NCBI GenBank assembly: GCA_029262235.1
Contig: JAJCZU010000004.1
Coordinates: 496,001-560,000 of the forward strand
Source of the DNA: Candidatus Eiseniibacteriota bacterium
GTDB taxonomy: Bacteria > Orphanbacterota > Orphanbacteria > Orphanbacterales > Orphanbacteraceae
DNA length: 64,000 bases
Direction: 5' to 3'
A program made the translations under genes and the position numbers. A model generated the notes under the pieces. The model had not been told where the DNA came from, did not search any database, and saw only the letters and a program-made list of their open reading frames with translations. How positions within the stretch are numbered: position 1 is the stretch's first letter; every line of letters begins with the position of its first letter. Shown here piece by piece: positions 57,778 to 61,646 of this stretch.

Positions 57778-58551
57778 CTACTCGATATCGATCAGAACGG
57801 GGGCGTGGTCCGAGGCGACCATGCCCTCTTTCTTCTTGCGGTACTCACGGTCGATCTCGACGTTCGTAACGCGCTTCTTGAGAGCCTCGCTACTGAGAAT
57901 GAAGTCGATACGGAGCCCGAGGTTCCGGTGAAAACCGCCGCCGCGATAATCCCACCAGGAGAAATCACCCGCATCGGGATGTTTCCAGCGGAAGAGATCC
58001 GTGAAGCCGAGGTCGAGCAGCGCGCGCCACCGTGCGCGTTCTTCATCGGTGTGAAAGATCTTTCCCTTCATGCGTGCCTCGTCGAACGTGTCGATCGCCT
58101 CCGGACACAGATTGAAGTCGCCGCAAACGACATTCTGATCGCCGGCCGGATGCGTGGCGCCGAGATGCTTCACGAGATCGTCGAGCCACGCGAGCTTCTT
58201 CGGGAAGTCTTCGTGTTCGACGCGCTTTCCGTTCGGCACGTAAACCGTCGTGAAACGGATGTCGTTCACGCGCGCCGTGATGAGTCGCGCGCCGAATTCG
58301 TCCTGGCCGGGAAGCCCGCGCTGTTCGACTTCGATACCGTTTCTGGCGAGCACGGCGACGCCGTTCCACGCCTTCTGCCCGTGCGTCTCCACCTGATAGC
58401 CGGCCGCTTCGATCTCGAGGCGCGGAAACTGCCCGTCGTCGGTCTTGATCTCCTGCAGACCGACGAGGTCGGGTTTCCGCGCATCCAGCCAGTGCAGCAC
58501 GAAATCGAGTCGGGCCCGCATGCCGTTGATGTTCCATGTGGCAATTCGCAT
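57778..58551 (-). CDS. xth: Exodeoxyribonuclease III
   Basis: The protein has 257 residues, close to the 268 of E. coli XthA. The EEP-fold motifs are complete: MRIATWNINGMRARL, LVGLQEIKTDDGQFP (metal Glu), TVYVPNGK, VVCGDFNLCPEAID and the catalytic SDHAPVLID. FSWWDYRGGGFHRNLGLRID is typical of exonuclease III. It acts in base-excision repair as an apurinic endonuclease and 3'-exonuclease in the cytoplasm. Upstream in-frame starts exist, but ATG 58551 opens exactly at the conserved first strand. There is no ribosome-binding site. TGTTAAGAT ends ten bases upstream, predicting a very short leader. It is divergent from the B12-type regulator. Confidence 0.95.
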   Translation of the reverse strand: MRIATWNINGMRARLDFVLHWLDARKPDLVGLQEIKTDDGQFPRLEIEAAGYQVETHGQKAWNGVAVLARNGIEVEQRGLPGQDEFGARLITARVNDIRFTTVYVPNGKRVEHEDFPKKLAWLDDLVKHLGATHPAGDQNVVCGDFNLCPEAIDTFDEARMKGKIFHTDEERARWRALLDLGFTDLFRWKHPDAGDFSWWDYRGGGFHRNLGLRIDFILSSEALKKRVTNVEIDREYRKKKEGMVASDHAPVLIDIE

Positions 58552-58561
58552 GATGCGCCGG

Positions 58562-58570
58562 ATCTTAACA
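58562..58570 (-). promoter_or_regulatory. Extended -10 promoter (TGTTAAGAT) of the exonuclease III gene
   Basis: TGT-TAAGAT on the minus strand lies ten bases before ATG 58551 and lacks a -35. It is one of the short-leader promoters in the window. Confidence 0.5.
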
Positions 58571-58646
58571 GGGGGAACGTGCGGGATAAAGGGGGTGGGC
58601 TCGCAGCACGAAATCTCTACAAAGTGAGATGCCGTGTTCCCGATTC

Positions 58647-58675
58647 TTGACAATACCTGTACAGATCCTGATACT
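58647..58675 (+). promoter_or_regulatory. Promoter and putative operator of the B12/MerR-type regulator
   Basis: TTGACA (58647-58652) and GATACT (58670-58675) are spaced by exactly 17 bp, and ATG 58682 is six bases beyond the -10. Two T-n-n-A-C-A motifs, TTGACA at 58647 and TGTACA at 58658, are exactly 11 bp apart; the second forms the palindrome CTGTACAG in the spacer. CarH-type regulators are reported to bind 11-bp-spaced direct repeats over the -35, so this is likely an autoregulatory site. Confidence 0.65.
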
Positions 58676-58681
58676 GAAGAC

Positions 58682-59623
58682 ATGAATGCCACGCCACAGG
58701 AACCGGCCGCCCGCCATCCGATCCGCATCGTTTCGCAGCGAACCGGGATTTCGCAGGAACTGCTGCGCGCCTGGGAACGCCGCTACGAGGTGGTCACGCC
58801 TCAGCGCACGAAGACGGGCAGGCGCCTCTATTCCGATGAGGACGTGCGACGTCTCCGCCTGCTGCGGGACGTGGTAGAGGGGGGGCGGCGCATTTCGGAC
58901 GTCGCTTCGCTGAGTGTGGAGGAGCTGATACGTCTGAAGGAGGAGGACGCACGCGCCGTGCGCCCGGAAGTTCCGAAGGAGCGCGCGCCATCTGCGGGCG
59001 GCGATCACGTGGAAGAAGCGCTGGCACTGATTCGGGCCTTCGATCAGGAGGGGCTCCGCGGATTGCTCGAGCGGGCGACGCTCGAACTGACGCGGCCGCG
59101 GATGCGGGAAGCGTTTCTCGTGCCTCTGATCCGGGCCATCGGCGCAAAGTGGGCGGAAGGGACGCTTCGAATCGCTCACGAGCATATGGCAACCGCGGTG
59201 ATTCGATCGTTTCTGGCGGCGGTCCCGGGGCGAATCGGGAGCGTGGAAGGCGCTCCCCTTGCGATCGTCGCGACACCAGCCGGCCAGCGCCATGAACTCG
59301 GCGCGCTTCTCGCGATGGCCACGATCATCGAAGCCGGCTGGCGGGCGCTCTACCTCGGCCCCGATCTGCCGGCGGAAGAGATCGCCGCGGCCGCAAAGTC
59401 ACGCGAGGCGTCAGTCGTCGCGCTCAGTCTCGTTTTTCCCGCAGGCGATCCCGCCGTAGTGCATGAAATCCGCCGGCTCCGCGATCTTCTGGGCGAGAAC
59501 GTAGCCATCCTGCTCGGGGGCTCCGCGGCCTCGCACTATCAGCAGGTCGCGGATGAAGTGGGTGCCCGTCTGACCCCCGATCTGGGTTCGCTGATGCGGA
59601 CTCTCTCCGCCGCGCAAAGCTGA
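58682..59623 (+). CDS. CarH/LitR-like B12-binding MerR-family transcriptional regulator
   Basis: The protein has 313 residues. The MerR-type winged-helix head (about 12-75) has HPIRIVSQRTGISQELLRAWERRY and GRRLYSDEDVRRLRLLR. A helical-bundle cap and a cobalamin-binding Rossmann domain follow. Residues matching the light-sensing AdoCbl pocket of Thermus CarH are Trp157, Glu167, His168 and the lower-axial His204 (in GQRHELG), with the same spacing W-x9-E-H. The Asp of the usual DxHxxG motif is Gln202. The residue equivalent to CarH His132, which binds cobalt after light, is Ala158. It should repress in the dark with AdoCbl. It starts six bases after its -10, so it is probably leaderless. Confidence 0.88.
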   Translation: MNATPQEPAARHPIRIVSQRTGISQELLRAWERRYEVVTPQRTKTGRRLYSDEDVRRLRLLRDVVEGGRRISDVASLSVEELIRLKEEDARAVRPEVPKERAPSAGGDHVEEALALIRAFDQEGLRGLLERATLELTRPRMREAFLVPLIRAIGAKWAEGTLRIAHEHMATAVIRSFLAAVPGRIGSVEGAPLAIVATPAGQRHELGALLAMATIIEAGWRALYLGPDLPAEEIAAAAKSREASVVALSLVFPAGDPAVVHEIRRLRDLLGENVAILLGGSAASHYQQVADEVGARLTPDLGSLMRTLSAAQS

Positions 59624-59754
59624 CCAGGTCTTCGTTGTCTGATAACCACTGTAACTTGTTATTATTAAATATGATAAGCACAGCCGAGCGTTCGCCCCGG
59701 CCCTCGCGGCACGCTTCTGCTCCTGGTCGCCATTTCCTTTGTTGTGTTTTTGTA

Positions 59755-59794
59755 TAGAAAAAGTATTGACAAGGATGTGACAATTCAATATTCT
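59755..59794 (+). promoter_or_regulatory. Promoter with three 11-bp repeats for the DUF4397 lipoprotein gene
   Basis: TTGACA (59766-59771) and TATTCT (59789-59794) are spaced by 17 bp. Three 11-bp blocks begin TAGAAA (59755), TTGACA (59766) and GTGACA (59777); the central one is the -35. The same 11-bp periodicity is found over the regulator's own promoter. The gap 59624-59868 otherwise holds an AT-rich stretch around 59650-59680 and a CCCCGC/GCGGGG leader hairpin at 59824-59839. Confidence 0.65.
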
Positions 59795-59868
59795 CTCCTC
59801 GTATCGCACTGGTACTGAAGTCTCCCCGCTCAGGCGGGGGCAGTGTTCACACAAGGAGGAATAGCAAG

Positions 59869-61302
59869 ATGCTTCGCAAAGTACGTTTCCCGATGATGAT
59901 CGTTCTCGCGGCCGCCCTGGCTGTCGGGTGCGGTGATGATGACAACAACAATCCCGTGGGTGTCAACAACATGGGCGACGAGGCGATGATGCGTGTCGTG
60001 CACGCTTCACCGGACGCGCCCCCCGTTGATGTTTACGCCGAGGGCGTTTCGGATCCGCTCATCTCCAACCTCGCCTATGGCGAAACGAGCGCCTACCTCG
60101 GCCTCGACGCCGGCACCTACAACATCGAAGTGAGAGCGGCGGGCGCAGCGTCCGGTTCCGCGCCCGTGATTGAAACGGGGGACCTCGTGGTTCCGGCCGG
60201 CGCGCGTATCACCGCCGTCGCGGCCGGCCTGCTCTCCGGTCTGAGTAAAGATGACGGGGACGCGTTGCGTGTGCTCGTTTACGCCGAAGACTTCACGGAC
60301 CCCGGCGCCGGAAATTCCGCCGTCCGCATCGTGCACGCGGGATCGGATGCCCCGCCGGTCGCCATCGACGTGAACAATGACGGGACGCCGGAACTCATGG
60401 ACGTCGCACGCTTCGCCGAGTCGGGCGCGGCAGGAGTCGCGCTTCCTTCCGATCAGGCGCTGCAGGTCGCGATCTGGGCAGGCAGCCCGCGCGAGCGCGT
60501 GACCGTATTTACGACGCCCGCGGCGATTCCCGGAGAACTCTTCCTGATCGCGACGGGACTGCTCGGCGAGTATCCGCGCGAAGATGACGGATTCGCTCTT
60601 CTCGCGGTAGGACCGAACGGCACGATCGGTTTCGTGAAGCAGAATCCGGTCGTATTTGCTCTGCATGCTTCGCCGGACGTTCCGCCGGTCGACCTCTATG
60701 CCGGTGACGCCGAACTCTACGACAACCTCGCGTTCGGCGAACTTTCGAGCGCGATTCAGGTTCCGCCGGCGTCGTATACGTTGAGCTTCCGTCCGAACGA
60801 TGACGGACCCGTGGCGGCCACTGCGACGACGCCGACTCTGGCAGCCGGTGAGCGCTACCTCGCCGTCGCGAGCGGTTTCCTTACGGCCGAAACGGGCCGG
60901 GCGGACTTCACACTGCTTCCGTTCGGTGACGGGTTCGATCTTGAAACGAGCAATCCGCTCGTCCGCATTGTGCACGGATCGGGTGACGCACCCGCAGTTG
61001 ATGTCGGCACGTTCGACGGCGCGAAAGTAACCGCCCTCGGCGAATTCTCGAATCTCTCCTTCGGTGATGCGTCCGCTGCCGCCGGTACGGCTGTCCCGGC
61101 CGCTTCGCTGACGCTCGGAGTCGCGGCCGCCGGCACCGACGCGGCGGTTGCCACGTTCGATGTCACCACCGTGAACGGGCTGCGTGCCTATGCGGTGGCC
61201 GCCGGCGCGCTGGCGCCGGGCGCCGCGGACGAGGCGTTCCGGCTCCTGCTCGTACAGACCCAGGTATTTCCGTGGACCGTGGCGGAGGTATTTCCCCACT
61301 AG
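59869..61302 (+). CDS. DUF4397-repeat lipoprotein
   Basis: The protein has 477 residues with a lipobox (LAVGC near residue 21) followed by an Asp/Asn-rich tether (GDDDNNNPVGVNN). Four DUF4397 repeats begin with MMRVVHASPDAPPVDVYAEG (about 40), AVRIVHAGSDAPPVAIDV (about 151), VVFALHASPDVPPVDLYAGD (about 261) and LVRIVHGSGDAPAVDVGTF (about 364). The third and first repeats are the most alike. DUF4397 is a beta-sandwich of unknown function, common on surfaces of FCB and actinobacterial cells. The ribosome-binding site AAGGAGG is nine bases before ATG 59869, a strong one. The promoter carries the same repeat array as the adjacent regulator gene, which suggests control by it. Confidence 0.9.
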   Translation: MLRKVRFPMMIVLAAALAVGCGDDDNNNPVGVNNMGDEAMMRVVHASPDAPPVDVYAEGVSDPLISNLAYGETSAYLGLDAGTYNIEVRAAGAASGSAPVIETGDLVVPAGARITAVAAGLLSGLSKDDGDALRVLVYAEDFTDPGAGNSAVRIVHAGSDAPPVAIDVNNDGTPELMDVARFAESGAAGVALPSDQALQVAIWAGSPRERVTVFTTPAAIPGELFLIATGLLGEYPREDDGFALLAVGPNGTIGFVKQNPVVFALHASPDVPPVDLYAGDAELYDNLAFGELSSAIQVPPASYTLSFRPNDDGPVAATATTPTLAAGERYLAVASGFLTAETGRADFTLLPFGDGFDLETSNPLVRIVHGSGDAPAVDVGTFDGAKVTALGEFSNLSFGDASAAAGTAVPAASLTLGVAAAGTDAAVATFDVTTVNGLRAYAVAAGALAPGAADEAFRLLLVQTQVFPWTVAEVFPH

Positions 61303-61313
61303 AACGCAAACTT

Positions 61314-61373
61314 GAGGGCCCTTGTCACTCCGGCCTGGAATTCCCGCTCGAACAAGAACCGGACGGGGCCCTC
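61314..61373 (+). other. Long inverted repeat downstream of the DUF4397 gene
   Basis: GAGGGCCC (61314-61321) pairs with GGGCCCTC (61366-61373), and inside it CTTGT (61321-61325) can pair with ACAAG (61352-61356). It begins 12 bases after the stop. The region 61303-61556 shows no gene; it holds this stem, a terminator and the ribosome-binding site of the next small open frame. Confidence 0.5.
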
Positions 61374-61411
61374 ACTTTCTTCCTCCTGCCCTCCATACAA
61401 GAGCAGGTACG

Positions 61412-61447
61412 AGGCGGTCTCCTTCATGGAGGCCGCCTTTCTTTGTT
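61412..61447 (+). terminator. Intrinsic terminator after the DUF4397 gene
   Basis: An 11-bp stem (61412-61422 with 61428-61438, one T-G pair) has loop TTCAT and is followed by TTTCTTTGTTT. It is placed 110 bp after the stop. Confidence 0.8.
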
Positions 61448-61556
61448 TCCTGCACTTGCGCGAACAAAAAGCCCGTTTGATGTGGCGCATTGCGCCCCAC
61501 ACATACGGATGCTACTTTCTGCGTGACGAGCCACCCGCGAAACGACAGGAAACGCC

Positions 61557-61646
61557 ATGGACTTCCCGAAGCCGTACGAGCGTGAGCATGCGGAGACGGT
61601 CATCCGCGCCGCGATGCAGAACTACGAAGACGAGTTCGGCGGCTGA
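61557..61646 (+). CDS. Short open frame in phase with the M14 peptidase, separated by one TGA
   Basis: ATG 61557 has AGGAAA seven bases upstream, the same ribosome-binding context as the NTF2-like gene. It codes for 29 residues (starting MDFPKPYEREHAETVIRAAM). It stops at TGA 61644 and, after one CGG codon, the peptidase ATG 61650 continues in the same frame. It may be a leader peptide, or the N-terminus of a longer peptidase broken by a nonsense codon. Selenocysteine or readthrough at TGA is possible, though no obvious SECIS hairpin is seen. Confidence 0.45.
   Translation: MDFPKPYEREHAETVIRAAMQNYEDEFGG

Follow-up and report, generated by a model that had tools for sequence, protein, structure and literature searches.

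A CarH-like gene and a DUF4397 lipoprotein gene with shared 11-bp repeats over their promoters: a predicted light/B12-controlled surface-protein target set

The LitR/CarH photoreceptors have been described chiefly as regulators of light-induced carotenoid production (PMC9758184). According to PMC9304148, the CarH operator is formed by tandem 11-bp repeats, nnnnTnnACAn, with the -35 element within one of them, and the tryptophan of the Wx9EH motif, which contacts the adenosyl group, sets CarH apart from the B12-independent CarA. The light signature of cobalamin photoreceptors is composed of GxxW, EH, GxxH, and GxxxP (PMC11796333). A different kind of control is described for fasciclin genes. 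In R. sphaeroides, fasciclin is in the singlet-oxygen RpoE regulon, with a log2 change of 2.8 at 7 min and 4.5 at 45 min (PMC7074977), and the fasciclin of Azospirillum brasilense was reported to mediate flocculation under RpoE-ChrR (PMC10949492, citing Dubey 2021).

Here we describe a locus in a 64,000-nucleotide stretch of DNA (the window) where a carH-like gene, hereafter carH, is followed by a DUF4397 lipoprotein gene. The features are collected in Table 1.

Table 1. Position, strand, and description of the features of the carH-DUF4397 locus (window coordinates)
Feature	Position	Strand	Details
Predicted CarH operator at carH, two tandem 11-bp repeats	58643..58664	+	TTGACA 58647-58652, TGTACA 58658-58663
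carH core promoter	58647..58675	+	-35 TTGACA 58647-58652, 17-bp spacer, -10 GATACT 58670-58675
carH-like gene, 313 aa	58682..59623	+	MerR-type DNA-binding domain and AdoCbl-binding domain
Predicted CarH operator at DUF4397 promoter	59751..59782	+	TGTATA 59751-59756, TAGAAA 59755-59760, TTGACA 59766-59771, GTGACA 59777-59782
DUF4397 core promoter	59766..59794	+	-35 TTGACA 59766-59771, 17-bp spacer, -10 TATTCT 59789-59794
DUF4397 lipoprotein gene, predicted target, 477 aa	59869..61302	+	Lipobox-like AVGC; Pfam PF14344 2e-49
Terminator-like hairpin 3' of DUF4397 gene	61411..61439	+	Such sites no commoner than in shuffles; weak alone

Tandem repeats over the carH and DUF4397 promoters

A previous sequence-only reading of this DNA had assigned TTGACA followed by A as the -35 element of both promoters, with another ACA exactly 11 bp downstream in each; both observations were confirmed at the positions of Table 1. 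The carH promoter, TTGACA-atacc-TGTACA-gatcct-GATACT, contains two full nnnnTnnACAn repeats overlapping the -35, so that the likeness to CarH operators proposed in that reading agrees with the operator in PMC9304148. In the DUF4397 promoter, TGTATAGAAA (starting at 59751) is followed by TTGACA-aggat-GTGACA and then by TATTCT. One of its repeats is full and the second, GTGACA, keeps ACA and loses the T. Taking into account that TTGACA always fits TnnACA, the evidential weight lies on the second repeat; considered singly, GTGACA at +11 had a shuffle p of ~0.07 and by itself is only suggestive of a CarH repeat. The TAGAAA block claimed 11 bp upstream of this -35 was located there. A preferable reading makes it part of TGTATAGAAA; the TGTATA of this element is 15 bp away from the -35 repeat, in agreement with the wider layout of the target promoters described below.

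A consensus scan of positions 58400-61600 detected just two sigma-70-like promoters, those of carH and DUF4397, with 0.3 expected from shuffles. The genome-wide tests were performed as pattern searches. TTGACA-N8-ACA was found 4 times in both strands of the 4.47-Mb genome, two of them being the carH and DUF4397 promoters; neither of the remaining two (L009 and L052) precedes a convincing gene start. TTGACA-N5-TNNACA occurred twice in the whole 4.47-Mb genome. With TNGACA-N8-ACA 41 matches were obtained, and among the handful whose surroundings were read the pair was at a plausible promoter in carH, DUF4397, and a fasciclin gene.

In L011, a contig of the same genus, the order exonuclease-III-like gene, carH, and DUF4397 is kept together with both promoters, including the carH -10 GATACT, and the DUF4397 orthologue is 88% identical. 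Both repeat pairs are kept while the flanks diverge, and the substitutions spare ACA (TGTACA to TATACA and GTGACA to ACGACA). Orthologues of carH were found in 23 of 80 genomes from the phylum of G031. The counts are not independent events because the sequences share ancestry: TnnACA-N5-TnnACA was present in 22 of 26 carH upstream regions, compared with 0.4% after shuffling, and the distance from TNGACA to ACA peaked at +11 (23 of the 36 TNGACA in these regions), other distances having ~1 each and the background being 0.6%. The repeat pair was found in 29/32 carH promoters from several phyla, a count that includes Litoricola-type Gammaproteobacteria and accepts ACG in the second repeat. Since many carH promoters carry TGGACA instead of the optimal -35, the pattern is not mere promoter strength. 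ACA at +11 was seen in 18 of 25 promoter-like sites of carH/target regions and in 0 of 7 elsewhere in the same loci. The sequence-only reading had given the lack of repeats at orthologous positions as grounds for its own refutation; they are conserved in L011 and in other carH and target promoters.

Some other characteristics of these loci were observed. GATACT ends 6 bp from the carH ATG (58670-58684), with a similarly short distance in L011, and therefore the carH mRNA is probably leaderless. Upstream of carH and divergent from it there is an exonuclease-III-like gene (57778-58551, minus strand); a block between them, ATCTCTACAAAGTGAGA (58610-58632), is kept in L011, and the distant CarH-like gene of L007 also comes after an exonuclease-III-like gene. 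No riboswitch or other RNA family was found near either promoter in the 52-64 kb region. In the Litoricola-type CarH relatives (L016, L020, and L023) the adenosyl-stacking Trp is replaced by Thr, as in B12-independent CarA, and three ACA repeats 11 bp apart precede their own carH-like gene.

Target promoters and gene linkage

The fasciclin site is outside the window, near G000:C3:578128-578165, and reads TTTGTATAGAAA-aaaga-TAGACA-aaaac-TTGACA, with a -10-like TACATT 17 bp past TTGACA; the gene encodes a secreted fasciclin-domain protein. Across the genome, TTGTATAGAAAN5TNGACA matched perfectly at two places only, the DUF4397 and fasciclin promoters. At the fasciclin promoter the final repeat serves as the -35, and at the DUF4397 promoter the next-to-last one does; the module is thus displaced 11 bp with respect to the core promoter, which fits what is expected for a protein-binding site. 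Three observations support the prediction of DUF4397 as target: the kept adjacency, the presence of the repeats at orthologous promoters, and the lack of them in a CarH-less genome of the same family. The target set had to be amended, as the fasciclin gene, elsewhere in the genome, probably belongs to it too.

In the CarH-less genome (G004, same family, no CarH match) the DUF4397 gene is ~60% identical and has no such repeats before it. Its sister G006, likewise with no CarH match, showed no repeats either, the DUF4397 gene being split over contigs. The only fasciclin match in the same-genus genome looked spurious, inside a trehalose-phosphate-synthase-like gene; as this genome is 82% complete, a fasciclin gene may have been missed. 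By search of the window's own genome, the window copy was the sole DUF4397 gene found. We know of no function for the DUF4397 family, and the fold search, which yielded beta-sandwich repeats and weak matches (PepT extracellular domain and AlgF), was uninformative on function.

The carH gene adjoins a fasciclin and/or a DUF4397 gene in 15 of the 21 Krumholzibacteriia loci with readable flanks, frequently as carH, fasciclin, and DUF4397 in a row, and a Gemmatimonadetes MAG has the same linkage in divergent orientation. Some carH genes that lack the fasciclin link adjoin photolyase-like, epimerase-like, or SRPBCC-like genes, as read from sequence, and such neighbours are consistent with a light regulator. 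The carH genes of L144 and L150 diverge from a photolyase/cryptochrome-like gene, with a NAD-dependent-epimerase-like gene next in line; a similar epimerase-like gene is near the carH-fasciclin locus of G031 (L112). In L155:7145-9502, carH is followed by fasciclin and DUF4397 matches whose reading frames are broken, pointing to decay or sequencing errors.

No carotenoid genes were found beside the window carH. The genome search yielded a single squalene/phytoene-synthase-type gene (G000:C2:992832-993644, L164), located directly after a folE-like gene (GTP cyclohydrolase). Its promoter had no CarH-like pair, and the only TnnACA-N8-ACA in the 18 kb around it was ~2.9 kb upstream. Carotenoid genes may be additional CarH targets.

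The pattern of the target promoters was TGTAYA-11-TGTAYA, 14/15 bp, TTGACA-11-TnnACA/G, and the +11 repeat was found at 8 of their 19 TNGACA. Combined shuffle tests in 15 target promoters yielded 1e-6 (downstream repeat) and 2e-14 (upstream pair); these values are indicative only, since the promoters are related and the layout was picked with the sequences in view. A +11 repeat of good quality was absent at several target promoters of relatives (L145, L149, and L153). The TGTAYA element could be bound by another regulator, and it is conceivable that CarH regulates only itself, perhaps with other genes, while this regulator binds TGTAYA(GRAA) at the DUF4397/fasciclin promoters and the ACA is incidental. 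We consider this unlikely: the TGTATAGAAA element is not in carH promoters and lies 14-15 bp from the -35 repeat, outside the 11-bp register, which speaks for a separate factor, but the +11 repeat is enriched at the target promoters too, the TGTAYA elements keep an 11-bp spacing of their own and are similar to T(G/A)TACA, the consensus of LitR, and the adjacency to carH is kept, with the repeats gone where CarH is gone.

The CarH-like protein

The regulator had been read as CarH-like, which was borne out by family searches, motifs, and predicted fold. The Pfam domains of the protein were MerR_1 (6.7e-14), B12-binding_2, and B12-binding. The best NCBIfam family was CarH (3e-35, 121.7 bits), below the 400-bit cut-off of the CarH equivalog NF052513, which is narrow. 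T. thermophilus CarH was the best PDB relative (5c8d, 4e-28), and the AF2 model resembled it in Foldseek. The DNA-recognition motif RxWERRY appears as RAWERRY in residues 29-35 and Wx9EH as W157 and E167-H168. The B12-binding motif D/ExHx2G/P-x41-SxT/V-x22-27-GG is present with the right spacing (H204-E-L-G207, S249-L-V251, and G279-G280), with Gln replacing D/E two positions before the axial His. The light signature is complete (GAKW, EH, GQRH, and GPDLP), and a cobalamin adenosyltransferase is encoded in the same genome. As judged by sequence, motifs, and predicted fold, the protein is a member of the class I LitR/CarH photoreceptor-repressor family. In the tree, most fasciclin-linked Krumholzibacteriia CarH grouped together and the window pair lay apart from them.

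Residue His132 of Thermus, the upper ligand in the light state, is next to the light-signature Trp and is found in many, not all, CarH. Its position is occupied by Ala in the window CarH and in L011 and by residues other than His in most relatives; the light-state chemistry of the window protein may therefore differ. The Thermus H132A mutant was impaired in light-driven disassembly and remained mostly tetrameric in light (PMC10442372), as would be in line with a repressor of the CarH type able to bind both promoters but not to sense light, either reporting AdoCbl (B12) status or being B12-independent like CarA. However, some cobalamin photoreceptors naturally lack a His132 equivalent, and CtMerR, with Arg at this position, is light-responsive (PMC11796333), which indicates that His132 is not defining for CarH. 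Moreover, the Wx9EH Trp, the discriminator between CarH and CarA in PMC9304148, is intact, and close relatives adjoin photolyase-like genes. Loss of light sensing is thus rather improbable.

Proposed mechanism and comparison with known systems

That the 11-bp spacing is due to chance in A-rich promoters or is a generic promoter feature is extremely improbable, and was rejected, given the genome rarity of the pair, the sharp +11 peak in orthologous promoters, and the 0/7 control sites, even though TTGACA itself meets TnnACA and further repeats have modest odds in any single promoter.

Taking as established the family and motifs of the protein, the repeats and their conservation, and the fasciclin/DUF4397 linkage, we infer binding, the direction of regulation, the dependence on light and B12, and the role of the targets as follows. 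In the dark, AdoCbl-loaded CarH would oligomerise and bind the tandem 11-bp TnnACA repeats, which overlap the -35 of carH, DUF4397, and fasciclin, and the bound protein would block RNA polymerase. Light would break the Co-C bond, CarH would leave the DNA, and the surface proteins would be produced, with cell aggregation or photoprotection of the surface as their probable function. By analogy, the photooxidative control of fasciclin and its part in flocculation elsewhere would make light-induced aggregation or surface protection a sensible role. We regard as probable, from the sequence evidence, a CarH that regulates itself together with DUF4397 and fasciclin, with repression in the dark and release in light.

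The TGTAYA pair would be occupied either by CarH, as a split operator with two dimers, or by a second factor. We give an even chance to a light/B12-controlled surface module formed by carH, fasciclin, and DUF4397 with a split operator of four repeats (two pairs, each with 11-bp spacing, separated by 14-15 bp and serving one CarH dimer each), extending over Krumholzibacteriia, the window genus, and one Gemmatimonadetes MAG. Considering that the same neighbourhood and DNA signature occur in many distant bacteria, the light switch probably governs the cell surface and not pigments alone. If true, such a conserved link in uncultured phyla would place light-controlled adhesion/aggregation beside carotenoid production as the second main output of B12 photoreception, a counterpart to the fasciclin that RpoE controls in Rhodobacter and Azospirillum; there would also be a testable role for DUF4397, and natural operators of a novel spacing would become available. 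The open-access literature searched, which excludes most subscription journals, contained nothing relevant that connects fasciclin with CarH, LitR, or DUF4397. The protein family is known; the surface-protein target set and the operator layout are apparently new.

With Thermus thermophilus CarH and class I LitR, the window system shares domain order, DNA-recognition motif, Wx9EH, axial His, fold, and the tandem 11-bp TnnACA repeats over the -35. It differs from Thermus thermophilus CarH in sequence (~31% identity, His132 replaced by Ala), in the number of full repeats at the carH promoter (two instead of three), and in being linked to DUF4397/fasciclin rather than to carotenoid genes. In the available part of PMC9304148, the myxobacterial CarH/CarA operators likewise combine full with imperfect 11-bp repeats, one of which includes the -35, but they control carotenoid clusters, and a TGTAYA pair 14-15 bp from the -35 pair, as in the window-type targets, is not described for them there. 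Pseudomonas LitR/PplR, of class II, is similar in its consensus, T(G/A)TACA, and in having light-inducible non-carotenoid genes, for example, photolyase and folE; in contrast, it lacks a full B12 domain, acts via a LOV protein in P. mendocina, and has neither fasciclin nor DUF4397 among the targets named (PMC9758184). The RpoE-ChrR fasciclin genes of Rhodobacter and Azospirillum depend on a singlet-oxygen-sensing ECF sigma/anti-sigma pair instead of a B12 photoreceptor, and the likeness to the targets proposed here is that of fasciclin under photooxidative control (PMC7074977).
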